A stretch of 64,000 bases of DNA. Origin: a virus. Position numbers and translations under genes: made by a program. The notes under the pieces were generated by a model that worked only from the letters and a program-made list of their open reading frames with translations, searched no databases and was not told where the DNA came from. Location: positions 1 through 64,000 of IMG/VR virus record IMGVR_UViG_3300042309_002578, one strand, 5' to 3'. Below are positions 8,140 through 63,962 of the stretch, in pieces (positions within the stretch are counted from its first letter, which is position 1; the number at the start of each line of letters is the position of its first letter).

Positions 8140-8168
8140 TTGACTTTTGTTATCCAGTGGTATATGCT
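8140..8168 (+). promoter_or_regulatory. Predicted promoter for the HTH operon
   Basis: TTGACT at 8140-8145, a 17-base spacer containing GTTATCCAGTGG, then TATGCT at 8163-8168. The spacer resembles a diverged family-1 core. Confidence 0.55.
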
Positions 8169-8207: not shown

Positions 8208-8339
8208 ATGTCAGCACCAAAAAGCAAAGAACTCACAAGAAATGAAAAGATCAGTGCTATTCTGCAAAACTTTAAAACAGTTCCTTGGCATAACGGGCTT
8301 GAAACTCTAGATTACAGTCTTCCGCTTGAACAATGGTAA
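8208..8339 (+). CDS. Very small protein, 43 aa
   Basis: ATG at 8208 opens a 43-codon frame (MSAPKSKELTRNEKISAIL...) 40 bases after the promoter's -10 box and 54 bases before the HTH gene. It may be the partner of the regulator, but it resembles no toxin I know. Confidence 0.45.
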   Translation: MSAPKSKELTRNEKISAILQNFKTVPWHNGLETLDYSLPLEQW

Positions 8340-8393
8340 TTGTTAAAGCATGATATCTCTATACAGAACAAATACTAACTAAGGACGCTAACC

Positions 8394-8831
8394 ATGATCT
8401 TAAATGAACGCCAATACATGATTACTAAATCTCAGATTAAAAAATTTCAATCAGCAACAGAAAATTTGGAAAAAGATCCCCCACAAGATAATGAAAATGA
8501 AAAGTTACGACATCAATCATATTTAGCTTCACTCAATGGTGAAATAGAAGAACTATTAGAACAAGTGGAGGAATATGAAAACCTCAAATCAAGGAAAATA
8601 GATAGGTTGGAATGTAAGTCTTTAGAAGAATTACCAGAAGCACTTATTAAAGCCCGGATTTTTCGTGGTTTAACTCAGGGACAATTAGCAGAACTTTTAA
8701 ATGTGAAGGAACAACAGGTGCAGCGTGATGAGGCTAATGGATATGCTAATTCTAGTTTCACCAAGATTTTGAAAGTTAAAAGTGTTTTAGGCATTGAGGT
8801 TATCCAATGCTCTATACATTTTCTGTATTAA
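8394..8831 (+). CDS. XRE-family helix-turn-helix regulator
   Basis: The 145-residue product has a helical, probably coiled N-terminal half (to about residue 85). A C-terminal HTH follows: IKARIFRGLTQGQLAELLNVKEQQVQRDEANGY, with a Gln-rich recognition helix. AAGGA precedes the ATG. The arrangement is that of antitoxin-like or phage regulators. It is a candidate to bind one of the two operator families of this element; the sequence does not tell which. Confidence 0.8.
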   Translation: MILNERQYMITKSQIKKFQSATENLEKDPPQDNENEKLRHQSYLASLNGEIEELLEQVEEYENLKSRKIDRLECKSLEELPEALIKARIFRGLTQGQLAELLNVKEQQVQRDEANGYANSSFTKILKVKSVLGIEVIQCSIHFLY

Positions 8832-10714: not shown

Positions 10715-10955
10715 TCAGAGACTTTCTTTCCCTTCTTGCGCTTCCAGAAACCCTCTATATCTTTCCGATGCAACTATTAACCTTAGAGCAGTTTCTGGAA
10801 CTGATTTTAATGGAGGCAACAAGTCTTTAGTTGTTGGAGTTTCATAAAAATTTTCTAACTCCATATTTACTAAAGTCTGCAAGTCTTTTAAAACCAATAC
10901 ATACTCCCTAAGTCTATGTTCTTGAGGCGTTAATTGTCGCCTTGTTTTTTTTCAT
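10715..10955 (-). pseudogene. Small gene needing a -1 frameshift at an A8 run
   Basis: ATGA at 10955-10952 couples this gene to the stop of the preceding one. The ATG is followed by eight A (10952-10945). As written, that frame ends after 13 codons. With seven A the frame would continue as MKKTRRQLTPQEHRLREY...LQTLVNMELENFYETP... to a TGA at 10715, 79 residues. It may be a slippage-expressed gene, a broken gene or a sequencing error. The protein is charged and helical, with no recognised family. Confidence 0.5.
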
Positions 10956-11230
10956 AATTTCTCCGCTTCTTGTACAACTATATCTTTTGTCCAAAATGTA
11001 ACGTGAGGAAGAGAATTTGCTTCTTCCATTCTCTTAGGAAGATCAGTCCTTTCGATAGCCCGTTTACTAAATAAGCTGCCATTGGGAGAAATTATCTCTA
11101 AGTATGAAGTGTCGCTAGAGCCTGTCACAAATTTGTATTTAAATTCACCATCGTGAATTTTTACTATTATTTGTTTCCCCCTTAACAATTCCGTTGTAGC
11201 ATCTTCGTGCGTAATTTGTGTTTTACTCAT
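10952..11230 (-). CDS. Hypothetical protein, 92 aa
   Basis: The ATG at 11230 (MSKTQITHEDATTELLRG) is preferred because the upstream in-frame codons overlap a family-1 promoter. The product has alternating strands (GEFKYKFVTGSSDTSYLEII) and a basic middle. Small early-type protein; no family recognised. Confidence 0.65.
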   Translation of the reverse strand: MSKTQITHEDATTELLRGKQIIVKIHDGEFKYKFVTGSSDTSYLEIISPNGSLFSKRAIERTDLPKRMEEANSLPHVTFWTKDIVVQEAEKL

Positions 11231-11261: not shown

Positions 11262-11290
11262 ATATTGCTGTGGACAACAATAAAAGTCAA
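11262..11290 (-). promoter_or_regulatory. Family-1 promoter (variant -10)
   Basis: Minus strand TTGACTTTTATTGTTGTCCACAG then CAATAT, with the family's 17-base spacer. It drives 10952-11230 and the coupled downstream frame. Confidence 0.65.
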
Positions 11291-11342
11291 GCTGTATTTC
11301 ACAAATTAATTTATAAAATACAGCTTGACTTTTACATAAAGG

Positions 11343-11567
11343 TTAAGCCGCTTTTTTCTCTTTTACTAAACATATTACTGCCGACTTACTGCCTGTTGTG
11401 CCAGTCTGCATACAGCTTTTTTTGTCGTCCGTAATTCTCCTACAGTGGAATTTCATATCATGGAACGCAAACTGTTTGCTCCATGTAATAATGTCGCCAA
11501 CCTCTAGCTTTTCCCACACGGTGTCATAATTCTCTTGGGTTACTTTTGTGATTTTTTTGCCTACCAT
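11343..11567 (-). CDS. Hypothetical protein, 74 aa
   Basis: ATG at 11567 (MVGKKITKVTQENYD) is chosen over an earlier in-frame codon that lies inside the promoter; AGAGAG precedes it. The protein contains KLEVGDIITWSKQF, typical of small SH3-like or KOW-like barrels, and two cysteines. Function unknown. Confidence 0.65.
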   Translation of the reverse strand: MVGKKITKVTQENYDTVWEKLEVGDIITWSKQFAFHDMKFHCRRITDDKKSCMQTGTTGSKSAVICLVKEKKAA

Positions 11568-11599: not shown

Positions 11600-11628
11600 A
11601 TAATACTATGGCTAACAACAAAAGTCAA
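11600..11628 (-). promoter_or_regulatory. Family-1 promoter
   Basis: Minus strand TTGACT (11628-11623), spacer TTTGTTGTTAGCCATAG, TATTAT (11605-11600). It drives 11343-11567 and lies beside the first repeat element. Confidence 0.8.
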
Positions 11629-11659: not shown

Positions 11660-12040
11660 CACGCTAAAAATTTGGTGTGCCGATATATCCACACAGGCTA
11701 GAAACATATTGTAATCCCCGCACAGCAAGGTTTCCGGTTTTAGTTGCATTCTCCCCAACGCCGTCCCCAAAACCACAAAACTGGCATTCGCTTCCAACCT
11801 GTCACAATGCCGCCAAAACACGAATCTTGTAACACGCCTCAAACCCGCATTCTCTCGTTGAAAAATCTGTGGCGGAGTATAACATAAAGCGTGTCAAAAG
11901 TAAAGGGAAGATACAAAGAAAAAAGGGCAGTTTCCTATAAGAAAGTGATCATCTTCCCTTTACTTTATTTTTGATTAAAATCAATATATTGTGCAAACAC
12001 ACGCCTGTATTTAAAACTCTTGTAATACGTCTGTAACACG
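11660..12040 (+). repeat. Repeat element copy 1: one A unit plus B block
   Basis: One degenerate ~158-bp A unit (ACATATTGTAATCCCCGCAC at 11704) is followed by the B block. The B block holds the hairpin AAAGTAAAGGGAAGAT (11897-11912) / ATCTTCCCTTTACTTT (11951-11966), 16 bp here. It also holds an inward-facing promoter on the minus strand: TTTACT (11904-11899), 17 bases, TATACT (11881-11876). No reading frame is shared with the other copies. Confidence 0.85.
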
Positions 12041-12043
12041 AAA

Positions 12044-12394
12044 CTAAGAGACAGATAGCTTGAGATCGTTTTTCCTAAAATCCTTGTCCTCCCAATAAAT
12101 TTTTAATTGTTGAACACCACTTTCATCAAAGCTTCCGGTGACCTGGATTTTACTAAGGTTTGGTATTTGCGATCGCAGTGCCACCTCAACCCTCGCGGGT
12201 ATTACAGATGTAGCAGAGGTTGTATCGAAAATATAGCTTTTAGTTCCATAGGAAAGTGGTCGCATAACACGCTCATATTGTCTTGTTTCCAGTACGCTAA
12301 ATATGGCATCCTTCTCAATATCTGTTCCTGTAGAAAGCATAATTCTGCCATTTGAAACCTGTATTGGATATTTTGGTGTTGCTCTTTCTACCAT
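12044..12394 (-). CDS. gp25-like baseplate wedge protein
   Basis: The 116-residue protein matches the GPW/gp25 family: GRIMLSTGTDIEKDAIFSVLETRQYERVMRPLSYG is the family's characteristic opening (the motif residues are RxMRPxxG). A helix and a final strand (QQLKIYWEDKDF) follow. It is a lysozyme-fold structural subunit of contractile-tail baseplates. It is divergent from the tail-fibre genes, 52 bases away, which supports the call and suggests a myovirus-type particle. Confidence 0.8.
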   Translation of the reverse strand: MVERATPKYPIQVSNGRIMLSTGTDIEKDAIFSVLETRQYERVMRPLSYGTKSYIFDTTSATSVIPARVEVALRSQIPNLSKIQVTGSFDESGVQQLKIYWEDKDFRKNDLKLSVS

Positions 12395-22010: not shown

Positions 22011-22487
22011 TTAGATATTCGCCAGCATTTTGCCCACTGATTCGTATATATCCCATTTTGCCTGAGACATTATCGCTCTGTGTGAATTAGTTGGTCTACC
22101 TTCGCCTGGATTTAGCTCTGTTGCAGTTCTGAGGCTTTCAAAGCCGATGCGCTCGTTGGTTTTCAAGTCGTACTCTTTATACCAAATATTTTTGTGATCT
22201 AGGTCTGTCAAATCAATTTGGACGTAATAATCAGCGAACGCTCTGAGCAGGGTTTTATATATTTCTCTGCCATCAACGTCTTGGGTAACGTTTAGCCCAT
22301 TTGTTATTGCCTTTTGGGGCGTTGTTACGTATTCCCAACTAACTTTTATGTTTTCTCTTTTCGTGCCGTTTGTAATCAAAAATCTCGCAAACCAAGCCGC
22401 TTCGTCCGCTTCATTAAATGTCTTTTCAATCACTCCGCCAATTCTTACTACCGCTTTTTTGGTTTTTACTGTTGTTATAGTGGTCAT
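22011..22487 (-). CDS. Hypothetical protein, 158 aa
   Basis: The ATG is 38 bases after a family-1 -10 box. The N-terminus is a basic strand (KKAVVRIGGVIEKTF), followed by helices and a Trp-rich middle (VQIDLTDLDHKNIWYKEYD). No family recognised. Confidence 0.65.
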   Translation of the reverse strand: MTTITTVKTKKAVVRIGGVIEKTFNEADEAAWFARFLITNGTKRENIKVSWEYVTTPQKAITNGLNVTQDVDGREIYKTLLRAFADYYVQIDLTDLDHKNIWYKEYDLKTNERIGFESLRTATELNPGEGRPTNSHRAIMSQAKWDIYESVGKMLANI

Positions 22488-22525: not shown

Positions 22526-22554
22526 ATAATACTATGGTTAACAAAAAAAGTCAA
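22526..22554 (-). promoter_or_regulatory. Family-1 promoter
   Basis: Minus strand TTGACT (22554-22549), spacer TTTTTTGTTAACCATAG, TATTAT (22531-22526). Consensus member of the family, driving 22011-22487. Confidence 0.8.
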
Positions 22555-26189: not shown

Positions 26190-26404
26190 AATACTATTTT
26201 CTTTTGTCTCTAACAGTATAGCATTGTTTTACATATTGTCAAAAAGTTGTGTCGGGGTGTTCGCTCGTCGTTGGCGCATAATTTGACGGCTTTATAGTTT
26301 ACCCAACTTGGGGGCGATCGCCTCACACACCCCAAAACTGGGGCGATAGCTTCACGGAACGATGGTTTTGTACTACATGATTGGCGACAGCTATTTATCA
26401 AAAA

Positions 26405-26545
26405 AATAAAATAAAGTTGGGAAGATGATCACTTTCTTATAGGAAACTGCCCTTTTTTCTTTGCATCTTCCCTTTACTTTTGACACGCCTTATGTTATAA
26501 TCCGCCACAGATTTTTTAACGAGAGAATAGGGGTTTCAGCCTCTT
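26405..26545 (-). repeat. Repeat element copy 5: B block only, reversed
   Basis: It contains GGGAAGAT (26419-26426) and ATCTTCCC (26465-26472), the conserved inner sequence, and the conserved promoter TTTACT (26473-26478), 17 bases, TATAAT (26496-26501), here facing right. There are no A units; the RNA would run towards 26.6 kb, where only weak sequence and the replication gene's terminator lie. Confidence 0.85.
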
Positions 26546-38305: not shown

Positions 38306-38626
38306 TTAGTTGTCACGCGTTGCCAATTCTTCAAAACTCAAAACTTCTGGACAGTTAGCAACATCCGTTAATGTTCGCAATCTTTTTCCAATAATAGAAA
38401 GCATTGTTAGTTTTTGAGCAATAGATTTGTTTCGCAGATCGCGTCTAGCAATGTGAAAGTCAATATTTAGTATTTCATTAATTGAAGCCTCTGTGCTTGA
38501 ACTAATTGTTTTTAGGTCAGCGATTCTGTTTAGTGCGTCTTGCTGACTTGTGGCGTTTAGTTTCATGTAAAGCTGCGCCAATTTATCTGATTCAGTTTCA
38601 CATTCAAAAGGTTCTTGTGAATTCAT
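38306..38626 (-). CDS. Hypothetical protein, 106 aa
   Basis: AAAGGAC precedes the ATG at 38626. All-helical, with KLNATSQQDALNRIADLKT and IAQKLTMLSIIGKRLRTL; possibly a small regulator, but no HTH is certain. Confidence 0.6.
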   Translation of the reverse strand: MNSQEPFECETESDKLAQLYMKLNATSQQDALNRIADLKTISSSTEASINEILNIDFHIARRDLRNKSIAQKLTMLSIIGKRLRTLTDVANCPEVLSFEELATRDN

Positions 38627-38760: not shown

Positions 38761-38789
38761 ATAATACTGTGGTCAACAAATAAAGTCAA
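38761..38789 (-). promoter_or_regulatory. Family-1 promoter
   Basis: Minus strand TTGACT (38789-38784), spacer TTATTTGTTGACCACAG, TATTAT (38766-38761). Confidence 0.8.
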
Positions 38790-41941: not shown

Positions 41942-42858
41942 GTTGACTTTTGTTGTTAGCCGTAGATTTGTACTCACACCACGTCAACGCCCAGCACCAT
42001 CGGTAAAAAAGCCCGACGGATGCCACCCTTGGCGACAAAAACATATTGTAATCCCCGCACAGCAAGGGTTTCGTGTTTTTGGCAATATTCCCCCGCAGCC
42101 GTCCCCCAAGCCGCAAACCAACCATTTGCACCAACGCCCTAACAACGCCCGTGCCACCAGCTAAAAACCTAAAATCTGCCCAGTCTTGGCGATAAAAACA
42201 TATTGCAATATCCGCACAGCAAGGGTTTTGTGTTTTTAGCGATCGCTCCCCCGCAGCCGTCCCCCAAGCCGCAAACCAACCATTTGCACCAATGCCCTAA
42301 CAACGCCCGTGCCACCAGCTAAAAACCTAAAATCTGTCCAGCCTTGGCGACAAAAAACATATTGCAATATCCGCACAGCAAGGGTTTTGTGTTTTTAGCG
42401 ATCGCTCCCCCGCAGCCGTCCTCAAAGTCATAAACCAACCATTTGCACCAACACCCTGACAACGCCCGTGCCACCAGCTAAAAACCTAAAATCTGTCCAG
42501 CCTTGGCGACAAAAAACATATTGCAATATCCGCACAGCAAGGGTTTTGTGTTTTGGCAATATTCCCCCGCAGCCGTCTCCAAACCGGCAAAACAGACATT
42601 CGTTCTCAGCCTGGACTAACGTCGATAAAATCAAAATCTTGTAACACGCCTCAAACCCGCATTCTCTCGTTAAAAAATCTGTGGCGGATTATAACATAAG
42701 GTGTGTCAAAAGTAAAGGGAAGATACAAAGAAAAAAGGGCAGTTTCCTATAAGAAAGTGATCATCTTCCCAATTTTATTTTTGATTAAAATCAAAAAATT
42801 ATGCAAGTACGCACCTATATCCAAAATTTCTGTAATACGTTTGTAATATAAAAATAAA
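41942..42858 (+). repeat. Repeat element copy 2: four A units plus B block
   Basis: ACATATTG marks recur at 42041, 42198, 42357 and 42516 (157-159 bp apart). The B block follows with GGGAAGAT (42717-42724)/ATCTTCCC (42763-42770) and a minus-strand promoter TTTACT (42716-42711), 17 bases, TATAAT (42693-42688), pointing into the A units. The left edge carries a decayed family-1 promoter (TTGACT at 41942). The units contain GCGATCGC and many CCGCAGCCGTCCC blocks. No conserved reading frame. Confidence 0.9.
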
Positions 42859-42870
42859 TCAAAAATGCGC

Positions 42871-42899
42871 TTGACTTTATTTGTTAACCATAGTAATAT
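42871..42899 (+). promoter_or_regulatory. Family-1 promoter
   Basis: TTGACT, spacer TTATTTGTTAACCATAG (17), TAATAT. It lies about 100 bases beyond the B-block hairpin and drives 42944-43162. Confidence 0.85.
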
Positions 42900-42943: not shown

Positions 42944-43162
42944 ATGACTAAGCCATTTGCAAATCTGGAAACCACCGAAAAGAACCACACTGCCGAGTAT
43001 GGAATCCGAATTAAATCTATAGTAATGTGGGAAATAAGGACGGAAATTTTGTTTGTGTATGTAGCTGGAGTTGCAGAACCAGTAGCTTTTTATGTTAACG
43101 AGTCTGTCGAGCTAATAGCCGAACTTAGGAAACAAAGCGAAGACTTTAGACCTCAAAAGTAG
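42944..43162 (+). CDS. Hypothetical protein, 72 aa
   Basis: GCGAGAAAAAG precedes the ATG. A beta-strand pattern (ILFVYVAGVAEPVAFYVNESVELI). It is the first gene of a short operon of early-type genes. Confidence 0.65.
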   Translation: MTKPFANLETTEKNHTAEYGIRIKSIVMWEIRTEILFVYVAGVAEPVAFYVNESVELIAELRKQSEDFRPQK

Positions 43163-44149: not shown

Positions 44150-44655
44150 TTGTCGGTAGAACATATTGCAATCTAGCCACAGCAAGGCTTTTGTGTTTTA
44201 GCGATATTTCCCCCGCAGCCGCACCAAAATTATAAAACGAGCATTTGTACTCACACCACGTCAACGCCCAGCACCATCGGCAAAAAAGCCCGACGGATGC
44301 CCAGTCTTGTTACAAAAACATATTGTAATCCCCACATAACAAGGCTTCTGTCTTTGGGTCGGCTGCGGGGAGACATTCCCAAAATCATAAAGCGGATATT
44401 CGTTCCCAGTTTTGGATAATGCCCCATAAAACTAAAATCTTGTAACACGCCTCAAACCCCTATTTTACTGTTAAAAATTTGGGGCGGATTATATCATAGT
44501 GAGCGTACCAAAGTCAAGGGAAGATGTGAAATAAAAATGGCATTTCCTTAAAGAAACAATGCACATCTTCCCAAATATTTTTTCCTTTTTTATAAAAATA
44601 TTATGCAAGTACGCACCTAGATAAAAAACCTGTAATACGCCTGTAATATACAAAA
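44150..44655 (+). repeat. Repeat element copy 3: two A units plus B block
   Basis: A-unit marks at 44161 and 44318. Hairpin GGGAAGAT (44518-44525)/ATCTTCCC (44565-44572). The inward promoter is TTGACT (44517-44512), 18 bases, TATAAT (44493-44488), so the promoter elements are kept although the surrounding bases have changed. An 18-codon ORF starting at 44095 runs into the element, as if a gene had been cut by it. Confidence 0.85.
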
Positions 44656-44672
44656 TGATTTTCAAATACCGC

Positions 44673-44701
44673 TTGACTTTATTTGTTAACCACAGTATTA
44701 T
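44673..44701 (+). promoter_or_regulatory. Family-1 promoter
   Basis: TTGACT, spacer TTATTTGTTAACCACAG (17), TATTAT; drives 44744-45133. Confidence 0.85.
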
Positions 44702-44743: not shown

Positions 44744-45133
44744 ATGACAATCAATAAATACTATTTTAATAGACAGCGAGTTGAATCCGCGTTGGCGGAT
44801 CTTGAACGGAATAAAAACCTCAAACTAGAGCAAGCCCGATTAAATGGGTGGGAAGTGGAGGTTTTGTCCAAGTGTGGACTGACGACTTGGAGGAAGAAGT
44901 TTGGGTTCTTCGTCCTGTCACAAGACATGGTTGGGCAAAAAGGATTGTCCACGTTCGACATTCCAGATCGAACGTGGGTGATCAACACGAATTTCAGGGA
45001 TCTATCTGATCTAGAAAGAGATGGATGGATTTCATCGGAAAAAGAAGCTGCGCTTCAATCTGCACTTCTTAGACCAGCAAGACGAACCACCTATCAATCT
45101 GCACTTCTTAGACCAGCAAGACGAACCACCTAG
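44744..45133 (+). CDS. Hypothetical protein with duplicated C-terminus
   Basis: GCGAGAAAAA precedes the ATG. The 129-residue product ends with two copies of QSALLRPARRTT from a 39-bp tandem duplication (45056 and 45095). The rest is helical with a Trp/Lys-rich middle; no family recognised. The duplicated tail is probably not needed for function. Confidence 0.65.
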   Translation: MTINKYYFNRQRVESALADLERNKNLKLEQARLNGWEVEVLSKCGLTTWRKKFGFFVLSQDMVGQKGLSTFDIPDRTWVINTNFRDLSDLERDGWISSEKEAALQSALLRPARRTTYQSALLRPARRTT

Positions 45134-45557: not shown

Positions 45558-46286
45558 ATGGCAACTAAAACCGCAAAAACAAATCCGCTCTGGGAGCAAA
45601 TCTACACCAGACAAGAAGGTATTGATTTAGGACTGGACCCGGATAATCTAGAATTTTTAGTTAAAAGAATTGCTGAAGAAATCCAGCAAAATGTAGATCC
45701 TGAATTTGTTGTTACAGGTAATGTGGTTCTCACTCAGTGCGGGAAATCTGAAATTGCTTTTACCACGACACAACAAGGGTTTCGTGTTTTTAAAAAGTAT
45801 GTTTTTGAGCTTTCAATCCCATCGTTTACAACAGATGGCGATGTTACAGTTACTATTTCCCCAGAAGAAAAACTTCCCTGCGGAAGACTGTTGACAGATT
45901 ACATCGACAAGGGCGCAGACAAAAAGCGGAAAGTTAAAACGATCAAGATTGCATTAGGCAGGGGCGAGAAAGTGATCGCATCCGCAATCTATAAATATTT
46001 CCCCGAATACGCTGACCTCTATGACGAGTCAAAAACCGAAAGAGATAGAGTTTGGGCAAAAATTGAGAAAGTAAAATCGGTGATTGAGTCCTTGGCAATT
46101 GCAGCCAACGCGGATGTTTCTGGCGACGGGATGTCATTTGAAATTGACACTGAAAACGCCATGAGAAAAGGGTCTGTCAACGTTGTCTCAACTGAAACTG
46201 GACAGTTCAAGTTGGAGTTCTTCACGGACAAACCCGACGATCTATCAAGAGCGATCGCGTTTTTAACTGGTAATACCTTAGAGTAA
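45558..46286 (+). CDS. Hypothetical protein, 242 aa
   Basis: A soluble alpha/beta protein (MATKTAKTNPLWEQIYTRQEGIDLG...) with a basic patch (KGADKKRKVKTIKIALGRGEK). No family recognised. It has its own promoter, and a 13-bp hairpin (46291-46303/46321-46333) follows. Confidence 0.6.
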   Translation: MATKTAKTNPLWEQIYTRQEGIDLGLDPDNLEFLVKRIAEEIQQNVDPEFVVTGNVVLTQCGKSEIAFTTTQQGFRVFKKYVFELSIPSFTTDGDVTVTISPEEKLPCGRLLTDYIDKGADKKRKVKTIKIALGRGEKVIASAIYKYFPEYADLYDESKTERDRVWAKIEKVKSVIESLAIAANADVSGDGMSFEIDTENAMRKGSVNVVSTETGQFKLEFFTDKPDDLSRAIAFLTGNTLE

Positions 46287-46420: not shown

Positions 46421-46813
46421 ATGGACAACACAAAATACAGTCAGTTACTGGCAGAGAGTGCGCCCCAAGTAATCGAAACCGAGGAAGAATACGAAAGGCT
46501 ACTAAAAATAGCCGAGAGACTTGTATTCAAAAATGATTTAACACCCGAAGAAAGGGCGTTAAGCAAGTTAGTAGTTTTTCTTGTTGAGGATTATGAGACA
46601 AAAAACTATCCAATGGACGACGAATCAACTCCCCAAGCAATCCTAAAGCACATCATGGATTCTAGTGGGAATAGTCAAGCAGATTTGGCGAGAATCACTG
46701 GTTCTAGCAGTGGAGTAATTTCAGAAATATTAAGCGGTAAGCGCGACATCTCCAAAAAACAAGCAAAGGCTCTGTCCGCACACTTTAAGGTTGATCCTAG
46801 TCTGTTTATCTAG
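46421..46813 (+). CDS. HigA-type antitoxin/XRE regulator, orphan
   Basis: ATG at 46421 gives 130 residues. The N-terminal helical part (VIETEEEYERLLKIAERLV, LTPEERALSKLVVFLVEDYE) and C-terminal HTH (SQADLARITGSSSGVISEILSGKRDISKKQAKALSAHF) match HigA of HigBA modules. No HigB toxin lies beside it, so it may be a lone regulator or guard against a host HigB. Confidence 0.8.
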   Translation: MDNTKYSQLLAESAPQVIETEEEYERLLKIAERLVFKNDLTPEERALSKLVVFLVEDYETKNYPMDDESTPQAILKHIMDSSGNSQADLARITGSSSGVISEILSGKRDISKKQAKALSAHFKVDPSLFI

Positions 46814-47984: not shown

Positions 47985-48013
47985 TTGACTTTCTTTGTTA
48001 ACCATAGTATTAT
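47985..48013 (+). promoter_or_regulatory. Family-1 promoter
   Basis: TTGACT, spacer TTCTTTGTTAACCATAG (17), TATTAT; drives 48047-48298. Confidence 0.85.
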
Positions 48014-48046: not shown

Positions 48047-48298
48047 ATGGCAGACATTAAAAAACTAAAACCAGGACAGCTTGTTTACAGCGTCGAAACT
48101 CAAAAACTTGGAAACACTGAATTAAGTATTCGCGCATTATACAGAGTCAGGATATTAGAAGTCAACCTTGAAATAGGTTTCGTGATAGCATCCTGGAACA
48201 GTAATCCTCGACAAAAATTCTACGAAACCAGCATCAAAAAATGGAAAACAGAAAGACCAGAACCAAAAAAGAAGGTTATGGGACTGGATAGTTATTAG
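48047..48298 (+). CDS. Hypothetical protein, 83 aa
   Basis: A basic beta-type small protein (MADIKKLKPGQLVYSVETQKLG...) of early-gene type; no family recognised. Confidence 0.65.
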   Translation: MADIKKLKPGQLVYSVETQKLGNTELSIRALYRVRILEVNLEIGFVIASWNSNPRQKFYETSIKKWKTERPEPKKKVMGLDSY

Positions 48299-53495: not shown

Positions 53496-53509
53496 TTATG
53501 TCTTTTGGG

Positions 53510-54325
53510 AGAAAAACATATTGTAATCCCCGCACAGCAAGGGTTTTGTGTTTTGGTAATATTTCCCCCGCAGCCGACCCAAAACTATAAACCAAACATT
53601 TGCACCAACACCCTAACAACGCCCCGTGTCATCGGCTAGAAAACCTAAAATCTGCTCAACTTTGGTGGTAAAAACATATTGCAATCCCCGCACAGTAATG
53701 GTTTCAGCTTTTGGTAATATTTCCCGCAGCCGTCCCCCACAACCCAAACATTTGTACCAACGCCCTAACAACGCCCGTGCCACCGGCTTAAAAACCTAAA
53801 ATCTGTCCAGCCTTGGCGACAAAAAACATATTGCAATATCCGCACAGCAAGGGTTTTGTGTTTTTAGCGATCGCTCCCCGCAGCCGTCCCCCCCAAGCCG
53901 CAAACCAACCATTTGCACCAACGCCCTACTAACGCCCGTGCCACCGGACATAAAACCTAAAATCTGTCCAGCCTTGGCGATAAAAACATATTGCAATCTC
54001 CGCACAGCAAGGGTTTTGTGTTTTTAGCGATCGCTCCCCGCAGCCGTCTCCAAACCGGCAAAACAGACATTCGTTCCCAGCCTGGGCTAACGCCGATAAA
54101 ATCCCAATCTTGTAACACGCCTCAAACCCGCATTCTCTCGTTAAAAAATCTGTGGCGGATTATAACATAAGGTGTGTCAAAAGTAAAGGGAAGATGCAAA
54201 GAAAAAAGGGCATTTTCCTATAAGAAAGTGATCATCTTCCCAATTTTATTTTTGATTAAAATCAAAAAATTATGCAAGTACGCACCTATGTCTAAAATTC
54301 TTGTAATACGTCTGTAATACAAAAA
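53510..54325 (+). repeat. Repeat element copy 4: four A units plus B block
   Basis: A-unit marks at 53516, 53674, 53826 and 53986. Hairpin GGGAAGAT (54188-54195)/ATCTTCCC (54234-54241). Inward promoter TTTACT (54187-54182), 17 bases, TATAAT (54164-54159). Confidence 0.9.
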
Positions 54326-54341
54326 TAAATTAAAAATGCGC

Positions 54342-54370
54342 TTTACTTTATTGGTTGTCCGCAGTAATAT
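54342..54370 (+). promoter_or_regulatory. Family-1 promoter (TTTACT variant)
   Basis: TTTACT, spacer TTATTGGTTGTCCGCAG (17), TAATAT; drives 54402-54653. Confidence 0.7.
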
Positions 54371-54401: not shown

Positions 54402-54653
54402 ATGAAATCAGAAATAGAAAGGTGGTTTATTGGAACTTACGGAAAAGATAATCACAAGTATTACATGGTCAATAATTATGAAAACATTGATATATCCACT
54501 GAAGACGGTGATATTGAGCTAACATTGCCTAAAGACTTTCCAGTTAAGCATATACCAACGATTGTGAATGCTCATCTTAATGCTATTGAGTGCGGAATAG
54601 CTATAGGCAAAAAAATCCAAATAGATCACATCTCAAAGGTTTTGTTCGGATAA
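54402..54653 (+). CDS. Hypothetical protein, 83 aa
   Basis: ATG at 54402 (MKSEIERWFIGTYG) follows AGAGGTTAGTA. Acidic alpha/beta protein; early-type position after repeat copy 4. Confidence 0.65.
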   Translation: MKSEIERWFIGTYGKDNHKYYMVNNYENIDISTEDGDIELTLPKDFPVKHIPTIVNAHLNAIECGIAIGKKIQIDHISKVLFG

Positions 54654-54781: not shown

Positions 54782-56602
54782 ATGTCAAACTCTAAAAGCA
54801 TTCAGACAACATTACCATTATTTGATTTAGCTTCAGAAACACAAAATGAGATTCCTGTTGTTGTTTCTGCTAAAGCCCCTGACCATAGGTTATTACATCT
54901 TTATCGGCTAAACTCTGGAACAGAAAATGTATCAACATATAGCGACAAATTTTGGCAGTTGCTAAACAATAGGGGTATTACTAATAAAGAACAATTTTAT
55001 TTGTTCGCTGATCCAGAAAAAACTCAGGTTGATAACCCCGAATTGCATTTTAAGGACTTAGCTACAGCAAAGGAATTAATCATAAACGCGATAAATAACA
55101 AAGAGAAGATTGCTATTGTCGGTGACTATGATGCGGATGGAATGACATCAACAGCACTTTTAATTAGGACATTTAGGAACTTAAATGCAGATATTAGTTA
55201 TCAAATCCCAGATCGCATAACTGAAGGTTACGCCATCAATCCGGCTATTGTTGAGAAATTGGCATTGGATGGAGTAAAACTGATTATCACGGTAGACAAC
55301 GGCATAACCTCTGTAACATCTGCCGACAAGTGCAAAGAACTGGGTGTAAAACTAATAATCACCGACCACCACGAAATTCCAGAAATTTTACCAAATGCCG
55401 ATGCGATCTTAAATCCTAGATTGCTGCCAGAGGATTCAATATATGAAAATTTAGCGGGTGTTGGTGTGGCATATATTCTGGCAGCAGCAGTTGCATTGGA
55501 TTTAGGAAAAAAGGATTTTATCGTTCAAGCAATCACCCTGGCCGCACTTGGCACTATTGCCGATATGGCCACATTGACTGGGATAAATCGTCGGTGGGTG
55601 CGGCGAGGGATGAAAAACATAGGTAATTGTGGTATCCCAGGCGTTGCGGCTCTAATTGCCCAGTCTCAAATCAGAAACAGTAATTCAGTCTCGACCGCTG
55701 ATATTGGTTTTAAAATCGCCCCAATGATCAATGCCATTGGTAGGATTGGCGATCCTAAAATTATTGTGGAATTACTAACCACGGACGATCCGCAAATTGC
55801 TAAGGAGTTGGCAATTAAGTGCGCGGCTTGCAACTATGAACGACAGATGTTGTCAAAAAGTACAACAGAACAGGCGATCGCCCAAGTTGAATTTAAATTC
55901 AAGCAAGCCTTAAAACAGGATAAAGTGCTTTTTCTGATTGCTGAAAATTGGCATCCTGGTGTTGTGGGACTGGTTGCTTCTAAGTTGGTCGAGAATTACG
56001 GTGTGCCAGCATTTGTGGGTGTGATAGTGGAAAAAGACGGGCAGAAACAGATAAAATTTTCTGCCAGAGGGATACCAGAATTTCCCGTTGGGGATGCAAT
56101 GAGAGCCAACAGCGATTTATTTATAAAATTTGGCGGACACCCACTCGCCGGTGGTGGTTCATTAAATTTTGACAACTATGATGCTTTGCGACAAGGATTA
56201 ATAAATTTTGCCAATGGGTGCATCAGAGAGGAAGACGTGAAACCTCTTTACAGGGTAGATACAGAGATAAACTTTGCAGAAATACCCCAGATTTTTGTCG
56301 AAAGCAAAATACTCGCACCTGTTGGCATTGGCAACCCTGAGCCTGTATTTTTAGCTAAAAATGTCAAGGTTGTCAAGCAAGAGTTAATGGGGAGAGATAA
56401 AACGCACGCCAGTATTACACTGTCCCAGGTTGTTGATGGTATATACCACGAAATCAGGTGCGTTGCGTGGAGCTATGCACGATATTTTCCGCTTCCAGAA
56501 ATGTTGGATGTTGTTTTTAAACTTGACGACAATTCTTACATGGGAAAAACCACAATCCAGCCACAAATTATTAGCCATTCAATATCAAAAAGTAGCTTAT
56601 AA
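54782..56602 (+). CDS. recJ: RecJ single-strand exonuclease
   Basis: The 606-residue protein has DHH-family motifs IAIVGDYDADGMTSTALL (near 114) and IITDHHEIPEI (near 195). The DHHA1 part GVVGLVASKLVENYGVPAF and FGGHPLAGGGSLNF (near 450) and the C-terminal OB-like domain follow. It is full length. It degrades 5' ends of single strands in recombination and repair, and fits the replication set of the element. Confidence 0.95.
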   Translation: MSNSKSIQTTLPLFDLASETQNEIPVVVSAKAPDHRLLHLYRLNSGTENVSTYSDKFWQLLNNRGITNKEQFYLFADPEKTQVDNPELHFKDLATAKELIINAINNKEKIAIVGDYDADGMTSTALLIRTFRNLNADISYQIPDRITEGYAINPAIVEKLALDGVKLIITVDNGITSVTSADKCKELGVKLIITDHHEIPEILPNADAILNPRLLPEDSIYENLAGVGVAYILAAAVALDLGKKDFIVQAITLAALGTIADMATLTGINRRWVRRGMKNIGNCGIPGVAALIAQSQIRNSNSVSTADIGFKIAPMINAIGRIGDPKIIVELLTTDDPQIAKELAIKCAACNYERQMLSKSTTEQAIAQVEFKFKQALKQDKVLFLIAENWHPGVVGLVASKLVENYGVPAFVGVIVEKDGQKQIKFSARGIPEFPVGDAMRANSDLFIKFGGHPLAGGGSLNFDNYDALRQGLINFANGCIREEDVKPLYRVDTEINFAEIPQIFVESKILAPVGIGNPEPVFLAKNVKVVKQELMGRDKTHASITLSQVVDGIYHEIRCVAWSYARYFPLPEMLDVVFKLDDNSYMGKTTIQPQIISHSISKSSL

Positions 56603-57013: not shown

Positions 57014-57042
57014 TTGACTTTATTTGTTAATCATAGTAATAT
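57014..57042 (+). promoter_or_regulatory. Family-1 promoter
   Basis: TTGACT, spacer TTATTTGTTAATCATAG (17), TAATAT; drives the broken gene at 57078. Confidence 0.8.
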
Positions 57043-57077: not shown

Positions 57078-57372
57078 ATGACAACTACAAAAACCCAGAA
57101 AACGCTAAATGTTTGCGAGTTGATTGATCTAGCAAAAAATAAGAACATAAAGGGTGTTATTCACAAAGAGGTTGATAGCTGTCATACCATTTTAGATATT
57201 AAACCTTAGATTGTGACATTTCAATACGAAGATGAGGTGTATAGCATTACCTTTATAGACCAGAAATTAAGATGGTTGGCGAAGATTCAGATGGAAAAAA
57301 GGAATTTTTTAGTGTTGACGGTGAATTTGCAGAACTATTAATAACAATTTTATTAAAAAATCCTCTAAAATT
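57078..57372 (+). pseudogene. Broken small gene (nonsense codon and frameshift)
   Basis: MTTTKTQKTLNVCELIDLAKN... ends at TAG 57209. The same frame continues directly as IVTFQYEDEVYSITFID, then one base is missing near 57266, after which another frame reads PEIKMVGEDSDGKKEFFSVDGEF to about 57350. The pieces form one coherent ~95-residue protein. Confidence 0.6.
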
Positions 57373-58353
57373 ATGCCTCTTAAACTCACTGATTGGGATC
57401 AAGATTTACCAATAAAGAAAGATGAAGAATACCAAGCCTTTATTCGTACACTTCAGTTTACAGACGGCTTTAGTATATTATTTGTGCGTTGTTCTCCTGC
57501 TGAAGGTGAACAATTAATTAGTCAAGTGAAAGCAGATATTCATGATCAAAATATAGAAGTTATCAAATTAGATAAAGATGTGACGAATTTATATGCAATA
57601 GTTGATAAATTGCCTAACAAAAACAATATCAATATATTATTTATTACAGGCTTAGAGTCTTCATTCTATAAATACGAAGAAGCCAAAACTTTAGCAGGTT
57701 GGAATAGTCGACAAACTCATCATTATAGTTGGGAAAGTGTACCACCGTTTTTAATTAATATCAACCAACAACGAGAACGGTTTAGAGATAGTTTTAATAT
57801 TTGTTTTGTATTTTTATTACCGCAGTTTGCAATTAAATATTTTATTCACCGCGCCCCCGATTTCTTTGATTGGCGTTCTGGTTTATTTGATTTTCTTTTA
57901 GATTCAAAAACTCTAGAACAAGAAGCTACAAGGATTATTCAAGAAGGAGCTTATGAGAAATATGCAAATTTAACCAATGAAGAAACAAATCAGAAAATCT
58001 TAGAAATTATAGATATTATTGAACATGAAATAGATAATGAACAAAAAGCTGAATTATTTTTTGAATTAGGTTATTTGCAAAGAGTTAGAAAAAATTATGA
58101 AGAAGCCATATCTTCCTACGACAAAGCTGTGGAATTTAAACCTGATTATCACCAAGCTTGGTACAGCCGGGGCATTTCCCTAGATGATTTAGGCAGGTAT
58201 GAAGAAGCCATATCTTCCTACGACAAAGCTGTGGAATTTAAACCTGATTTACACGAAGCTTGGTACAACCGGGGCATTTCCCTAGATGATTTAGGCAGGT
58301 ATGAAGAAGCCATATCTTCCTACGACAAAGCTGTGGAATTTAAACCTGATTAA
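57373..58353 (+). pseudogene. TPR-repeat protein truncated by a nonsense mutation
   Basis: The first ~200 residues look like a degenerate NTPase/sensor region (FSILFVRCSPAEGEQLI). TPR repeats follow (NYEEAISSYDKAVEFKPD and two near-identical copies from a 102-bp DNA repeat). At 58351 GATTAA replaces GATTTA of the preceding unit. Beyond it the frame continues HEAWQRQLNSQGEYAAQQV to 58436. It resembles cyanobacterial chromosomal TPR proteins and is probably acquired. Confidence 0.7.
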
Positions 58354-58514
58354 CACGAAGCTTGGCAAAGACAATTAAATAGCCAAGGCGAATATGCAGC
58401 ACAACAGGTGATAAACAAGCTGCAACAAAAACAATAATCGCGCTTTTTAATAATATTTAGCCAAGATAGTGCTATTATTATATCACACAATCATTCATTT
58501 ACATAGAGAATAAA

Positions 58515-58736
58515 ATGGAAACCGAAGAGAAGCAGTATTACATAGAGAATAAAATGGAAACCGAAGAGAGGCAGTATGGTCGCGTAACAGTTGATGATGT
58601 TAGTGACACTATTTTACTTTTAAAGAGATTGAGTAATCAACATGGGATATCACTTGATCAAACAATTGCGATCGCAGCCCTCCTGGAACAAGCTAGATCC
58701 AATGATATAGCGATCGCCACAACTATTGATCAATAA
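58515..58736 (+). CDS. Hypothetical protein with duplicated start region
   Basis: A 39-bp tandem duplication (58502 and 58541) repeats the sequence from CATAGAGAATAAAATGG, so two start codons with the same upstream context exist. The 73-residue form (or 60 from the second ATG) has a helical region LLLKRLSNQHGISLDQTIAIAALLEQ. Confidence 0.55.
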   Translation: METEEKQYYIENKMETEERQYGRVTVDDVSDTILLLKRLSNQHGISLDQTIAIAALLEQARSNDIAIATTIDQ

Positions 58737-63577: not shown

Positions 63578-63623
63578 ATATACAGAAAAATAAAACACCA
63601 AATTCAATCAAAAAAGAAGCAAA

Positions 63624-63962
63624 ATGGATACAAGTCAAAAAAGAAGCAAAATGGATACAAGATCGCAGCTAAAAAAAGACGTTTCTGGCTTCATAAAAGA
63701 AGTTGTAGGAGTTGATGACCAAGACTTTAGAGATAAAGTCTTGGATGTAATCTGGAATTGTCCATTCGATGGTTATGACATAACTGGCGAGGAAAACAAA
63801 AACATCAAAGACTTAAACGAGGAGTACATAAAACAGATTCCTAAAGAAGAACACAAGAGTTTTATTCCTCGACTAAAAATTCTTCACCCTAGGTACTACC
63901 TAACTCTAAGAATTTTTGTGAGAAGGTTTGAGGCAATAGTCAAAAATGAATTAAAACATTAA
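63624..63962 (+). CDS. Hypothetical protein with duplicated start region, 112 aa
   Basis: A 27-bp tandem duplication (63608 and 63635) gives two ATGs, each with an AAGAAG ribosome-binding-type stretch before it; the second start is at 63651. The protein is helical and charged; no family recognised. Confidence 0.6.
   Translation: MDTSQKRSKMDTRSQLKKDVSGFIKEVVGVDDQDFRDKVLDVIWNCPFDGYDITGEENKNIKDLNEEYIKQIPKEEHKSFIPRLKILHPRYYLTLRIFVRRFEAIVKNELKH

Follow-up and report, generated by a model that had tools for sequence, protein, structure and literature searches.

A shared spacer element in a family of dispersed promoters of a likely cyanobacterial myovirus

Introduction

The promoter at positions 42871–42899 raises the question why the sequence between its −35 and −10 boxes recurs at other promoters of the same virus. 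According to a review, the spacer of σ70 promoters has no consensus for most of its length, and a Z-element (−24 to −18) is reported to contact the zipper of the β′ subunit, the sequence specificity of this contact being open (PMC4496709). A preliminary description had listed nine promoters of this kind within the window, by which we mean the whole stretch of DNA analysed, i.e. bases 1–64000 of a virus record that is 138,383 bp in full. Here, the family is defined over the full record (remainder: pieces L009–L012) and possible functions of the shared spacer sequence are weighed against each other.

Results

A promoter family with constant spacing

The nine promoters were located as described, at 11262, 11600, 22526 and 38761 on the minus strand and at 42871, 44673, 47985, 54342 and 57014 on the plus strand, and in every one of them 17 bases lie between the boxes. 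The decayed copy announced near 41942 was found at 41943. The sites in the window are as follows.

11262–11290, minus strand: family promoter TTGACTTTTATTGTTGTCCACAGCAATAT; drives 10952–11230 (92 aa)
11600–11628, minus strand: family promoter TTGACTTTTGTTGTTAGCCATAGTATTAT; drives 11343–11567 (74 aa)
22526–22554, minus strand: family promoter TTGACTTTTTTTGTTAACCATAGTATTAT; drives 22011–22487 (158 aa)
38761–38789, minus strand: family promoter TTGACTTTATTTGTTGACCACAGTATTAT; probably drives 38306–38626 (106 aa)
42871–42899, plus strand: family promoter TTGACTTTATTTGTTAACCATAGTAATAT, spacer element at 42883–42893; drives 42944–43162 (72 aa)
44673–44701, plus strand: family promoter TTGACTTTATTTGTTAACCACAGTATTAT; drives 44744–45133 (129 aa)
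47985–48013, plus strand: family promoter TTGACTTTCTTTGTTAACCATAGTATTAT; drives 48047–48298 (83 aa)
54342–54370, plus strand: family promoter TTTACTTTATTGGTTGTCCGCAGTAATAT; drives 54402–54653 (83 aa), then probably the RecJ-like gene 54782–56602
57014–57042, plus strand: family promoter TTGACTTTATTTGTTAATCATAGTAATAT; drives 57078–57209 (43 aa), then probably the TPR protein gene 57373–58353
41943–41971, plus strand: decayed member TTGACTTTTGTTGTTAGCCGTAG followed by ATTTGT; −35 box and spacer element intact, −10 box lost
8140–8168, plus strand: degenerate relative TTGACTTTTGTTATCCAGTGGTATATGCT of uncertain membership, upstream of the HTH gene 8394–8831

A consensus search allowing up to three mismatches recovered seven of the nine sites, with 0 expected from the 100 dinucleotide shuffles used as control. 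A weight matrix built from the nine window sites was then run over the whole record; the nine score 34–43 bits, as against 17.5 bits for the best match in ten Markov sequences of 138 kb. This motif search, which had been proposed in the preliminary description, added 13 members beyond the window (65686−, 73129+, 79853+, 80014+, 81814+, 86845+, 87410+, 91409+, 94373+, 97019+, 102593+, 115191− and 115863−), so that the family comprises about 22 promoters genome-wide.

Box spacing is exactly 17 nt in 20 of the 22 members of this record. The exceptions are 87410, with 18 nt, and 94373, with 16 nt in the record. As a sister contig has 17 nt at the latter site, it was dismissed as evidence for flexible spacing, which leaves only 87410 in support of an element that moves with the −10 box. 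The −35 box is TTGAC in 21 of 22 members (TTTACT at 54342) and the −10 box is of the TAWTAT type. Among the nine window sites the −10 sequence originally given, TATTAT, holds for five; three have TAATAT, and 11262 has CAATAT, which reads TAATAT in a sister contig. Upstream DNA is A-rich. TTGACA-like and TATAAT-like boxes about 17 nt apart are those expected of promoters for host SigA (type I). The classical extended −10 motif (TGn) is absent, position −15 being T or C and position −14 being A in 18 of 20 aligned sites each.

Two of the window sites lie in unusual surroundings. The promoter at 11262 has its −35 box in the right arm of a 54-bp hairpin (11281–11334) whose loop is inverted in sister contig L016. 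The decayed site at 41943, which is identical in a sister contig, has lost its −10 box at the edge of an array of ~160-bp repeats.

Sequence and geometry of the spacer element

The common spacer sequence that had been put forward, GTTAACCA, is exact in only four of the nine window sites (22526, 42871, 44673 and 47985), the other five reading GTTGTCCA, GTTAGCCA, GTTGACCA, GTTGTCCG and GTTAATCA. While the family itself is real, its conserved element is therefore better described as GTTRNCCRYAG, an 11-bp sequence immediately preceding the −10 box, at −23 to −13 when counted from the presumed start. When the 20 sites with a 17-nt spacer are aligned and the 29-mer is numbered from 0, G12, T13, T14 and G22 never vary and C17 and C18 hardly do, and positions 15, 16, 19 and 20 are variable. 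The element columns carry 1.34 bits on average and about 15 bits in sum, an amount of asymmetric sequence that would be most typical of a protein-binding site.

The suggestion that the element is an operator for a dimeric HTH regulator, usually palindromic, did not hold. Its GTTAAC core is broken on one side only in 11 of 22 sites, and these uncompensated changes in half of the family rule out a dimer-bound palindrome. Similarly rejected was a DnaA box. The portion TTRNCCAYA bears a resemblance to the DnaA box, TTATNCACA, but the family is free at position 4, where DnaA is strict, and fixed at position 5, where DnaA is free.

The element adjoins the −10 box and is oriented with transcription in 22 of 22 sites. 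Copies of at least 12 bits outside promoters number 5, as compared with 7.0 expected, and hence a set of solitary operators does not exist. An asymmetric, −10-abutting and non-solitary element would fit either an operator bound by a monomer or direct contact with RNA polymerase.

The second of these options is that the polymerase holoenzyme itself reads the element, which would mark early promoters as extra strong for the cyanobacterial SigA polymerase, in the way that the extended consensus marks those of T4-like phages. The element covers the Z-element together with the position that adjoins the −10 box on its upstream side, and contact of the zipper with the Z-element is reported for −24 to −18 (PMC4496709). 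By analogy, T4-like phages retain a GT-rich stretch ahead of −12 in their early promoters (PMC1524935), and all 20 aligned sites of the family with a 17-nt spacer have G at −13. The rigid register to the −10 box, which includes the 18-nt spacer of 87410, the constant direction and the lack of excess copies elsewhere likewise speak for a reading by the polymerase. The missing TGn motif counts against it, as does the occurrence of an unrelated spacer class in the same virus (see below). Moreover, we know of no spacer contact of RNA polymerase that comes anywhere near 15 bits. On balance we regard direct reading by the polymerase as somewhat unlikely, yet as the main rival, ranked next after the promoter-embedded operator favoured below.

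A second promoter class

Promoter-like sites in front of genes were filtered for TTGACW and TA..WT boxes, a strict filter that misses some of the 22 members; 14 of the sites retained contain the element and seven do not. Three of the seven element-free sites have a different spacer in common, AATATYGNGTTAATAT, which is built around the palindrome CAATATTG. Copies of AATATTG are enriched between genes, 73 of 124 being intergenic, with intergenic DNA making up 24% of the genome. The palindrome is often paired at distances of 11, 21 or 31–32 bp around TTGAC...TTAATAT boxes, and such pairs look like a classical, helically phased operator. Positions are as follows.

6210/6231, minus strand: CAATATTG pair, window
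7434/7445, plus strand: CAATATTG pair, window
21788/21809, minus strand: CAATATTG pair, window
39904/39936, plus strand: CAATATTG pair, window
59135/59166, plus strand: CAATATTG pair, window
84130–84162, 91038 and 116796–116865: CAATATTG sites, full record

Since similar boxes occur with other spacers in the same virus, it is the spacer sequence that sorts promoters, which suggests that the promoter classes of this virus may be set apart by their spacers rather than by their boxes. When the other upstream regions were subjected to motif discovery, the outcome was for the most part the A-rich leader. Leaders are A-rich and poor in Shine-Dalgarno sequences, an SD-like stretch being present in 14 of 69 confident genes.

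Conservation beyond the flanks

The shared spacer might also simply reflect recent cassette copies homogenized by repeat recombination, with an element that has no function. Six members are indeed located in larger shared repeats, and for this reason pairwise identity was compared among the 14 unlinked 17-nt members with those six left out. Upstream of the −35 box identity amounts to 28% at −100 to −41 and 35% at −40 to −1; it rises to 98% in TTGACTTT, falls to 53% over the four bases that follow and reaches 79% in the element, followed by 86% in the −10 box, 45% in the next 40 bases and 29% beyond, with 27% predicted from composition. An element at 79%, as against upstream flanks near chance and four less conserved adjoining bases, is thus conserved independently of its flanks, and pure copying as the whole explanation is ruled out. 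These figures, along with the existence of similar boxes lacking the element, also bear out the earlier view of a coordinated family whose spacer sequence is dispensable for a minimal σ70 promoter.

Some exchange between loci may nevertheless occur. Promoter sites in sister contigs are mostly identical to those of this record, but in sister contig L014 (371–399) the 81814 promoter is surrounded by the flank and leader otherwise seen at the 42871 copy, with the same element. This difference represents either cassette recombination between loci or an assembly that crosses a repeat. Even so, a functionless element is improbable in our judgement.

Other repeats were observed in the same DNA. Arrays or fragments of a ~160-bp repeat are located in the window at 42023–42591, 53505–54048, 44160–44650, 11699–12047 and 26394–26539, and beyond it at 8305–8808 and 16677–17800 of L009 and 11848–12251 of L011. 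They are apparently mostly noncoding, and several copies carry a conserved promoter-like sequence, CATCTTCCCTTTACTTTTGACACACCTTATGTTATAAT, facing into the array. They constitute a putative multi-copy RNA family; no Rfam match was obtained for the repeats of the window. In addition, perfect or near-perfect two-copy tandem duplications coincide with, or lie close to, the ends or starts of genes at 45055–45132 (39 bp), 58499–58577 (39 bp) and 63608–63661 (27 bp).

Genes behind the promoters

The first genes behind the window members encode proteins of 43–158 aa without significant family matches. The statement that all members serve short genes of unknown function is therefore accurate for these first genes and fails genome-wide, where members precede dnaX (102668), the gene before DnaE (97081, then 98046) and a C5-methyltransferase gene (87470). 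Within the window a recognizable gene follows the first one behind 54342 and behind 57014.

54782–56602, plus strand: RecJ-like exonuclease (phrog_2484, 9.9e-96)
57373–58353: TPR protein with cyanobacterial-type repeats (best match Planktothrix, 57% identity over 29%), containing 102-bp repeats that are 97% identical

No family member is associated with capsid, portal, sheath or baseplate genes anywhere in the genome. Because replication genes are served and structural genes are not, the promoters probably belong to an early, pre-replicative gene set.

The virus and its likely host

The virus encodes a DnaE-type polymerase, DnaX, a DNA polymerase III delta-like protein, RecJ and an FtsK-like protein, along with tail sheath, baseplate, portal and capsid proteins. 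The tail is contractile, and the capsid protein has relatives in Mu-like phages such as B3. The tail sheath matches only cyanophages, with phages of Nostoc, Anabaena and Dolichospermum at the top, and a DUF5895 protein matches only plasmids of the cyanobacteria Nostoc and Chroococcidiopsis, for which reasons the host is likely to be a filamentous freshwater cyanobacterium.

A domain search detected neither σ70 region 2 nor region 4 in the virus. The family was consequently rejected as the regulon of a phage-encoded σ factor, and the same result is no more than an indirect pointer to a use of host SigA.

Candidate regulators

Two XRE proteins are encoded in the virus, and both had been named as candidate regulators.

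8394–8831, plus strand: XRE-type HTH protein
46421–46813, plus strand: HigA-antitoxin-like XRE HTH protein (E. coli HigA, 8.3e-08)

The two are not detectable paralogs, and no link of either to the element was found. The upstream neighbour of the latter, gene 45558–46286, gave no NCBIfam match and was not recognized as a HigB-like toxin. Phage_integrase and Resolvase domains were not found in the virus record, which may be incomplete, and a lysogeny (immunity) repressor thus has no specific independent support.

Distribution of the family

Exact pattern scans of IMG/VR found no contigs with the family other than those of the same virus, i.e. near-identical strains. It is absent from the scanned stretches of the Nostocales phages A-1(L), Elbi and Dfl-JY23 and from the surroundings of distant DnaE homologues on contigs at 28–44% identity, orthologous promoters being unmapped in both sets. 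When intermediate relatives were sought via the capsid, sheath, DUF5895, DnaE and RecJ proteins, only the same virus or distant, family-free phages emerged; one distant RecJ locus was covered by the pattern scan of its collection. Contigs L020, L021 and L022 matched a relaxed pattern, but were dismissed as relatives because they are unrelated and have single sites.

These scans bear on the idea that the phage exploits the site of a host transcription factor, for instance a regulator that responds to light, nitrogen or stress. Recruitment of host regulators is common among phages, and the host would be a cyanobacterium. However, an exact scan for the full promoter pattern found none in 84,980 prokaryote genomes, and the element does not appear to match the sites of NtcA, LexA and RpaB (HLR1). 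A host factor site is the least probable of the explanations considered here.

Discussion

We favour, at a probability of roughly 45%, the view that the family represents dispersed strong promoters under host SigA in which the element is a promoter-embedded operator for a sequence-specific protein. In this scenario the polymerase with the primary σ factor of the host would read about 22 strong promoters of a cyanobacterial myovirus, and GTTRNCCRYAG upstream of the −10 box would mark them as one class. They would drive pre-replicative genes, mostly small ORFans together with the DnaE operon, dnaX, RecJ and the DNA methyltransferase, and a phage or host protein may bind the element and thereby control the whole set together. 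Shut-off would be likelier than turn-on because the boxes alone should already give a strong promoter. Whereas an operator is thus retained from the original proposal of an operator or activator site, an obligatory activator is unlikely given how close the boxes come to consensus, the 17-nt spacing and the A-rich DNA upstream.

Several observations argue against an operator. The register to the −10 box is strict in 22 of 22 sites, and an operator that acts by steric hindrance alone would be free to drift. Copies linked to repeats may exchange promoter cassettes between loci, which could homogenize some of them. Solitary sites are not above chance, unlike in L5-type regulons. Cluster A mycobacteriophages (L5, TipsytheTRex) nevertheless offer a parallel, having more than 20 asymmetric short sites oriented with transcription, operators and stoperators that are bound by a monomeric repressor (PMC9283540). 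By analogy, asymmetric, transcription-oriented sites such as those described here could be read by a monomer. L5-type stoperators differ in that they also occupy intergenic gaps off promoters (PMC9283540); in the present family all strong sites are promoter spacers and no surplus of such extra intergenic sites was seen. Furthermore, neither a candidate repressor nor an integration gene was found in this virus.

Early phage promoters that are dispersed and share an extended consensus are already known, and what is new here is the conserved element in mid-spacer. T4, RB69, RB49, 44RR and Aeh1 have dozens of dispersed host σ70 promoters with an extended consensus, A-rich DNA upstream and a conserved stretch upstream of −12, many of them before novel ORFs (PMC1524935). 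The present family resembles them in consisting of many near-identical σ70 promoters dispersed before novel ORFs and genes that we consider early. In the T4-like phages, whose hosts are not cyanobacteria, the −35, −10, upstream and GT-rich parts are conserved, and an element like GTTRNCC in mid-spacer is not described (PMC1524935). Likewise, Kayvirus vB_SauM-515A1 possesses 58 early σ70 promoters with TTGACW and a 17-nt spacer (16 or 18 nt as rare exceptions), separate from those of structural genes, but its conserved addition is an ordinary TRTGN extension instead of an 11-bp spacer element (PMC7698491). The Microcystis myovirus Ma-LMM01, another freshwater cyanophage, is thought to use host SigA throughout, and differs in that a phage-specific motif was not found there (PMC5780444). 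Our literature searches turned up no phage with a conserved promoter spacer, and an 11-bp asymmetric spacer element at 22 sites beside a second spacer class was not described in the literature examined.

It is tempting to speculate that promoter class is encoded in the spacer alone (GTTRNCCRYAG versus AATATYGNGTTAATAT) while the boxes are equal, and that cyanobacterial RNA polymerase directly reads GTTRNCC as a sequence-specific Z-element, a combination that appears quite unlikely to us. The family nonetheless provides natural, replicated templates for the question whether RNA polymerase reads mid-spacer DNA sequence-specifically. The same templates bear on how a freshwater cyanophage that encodes no σ factor could coordinate classes of genes by means of the host polymerase only.
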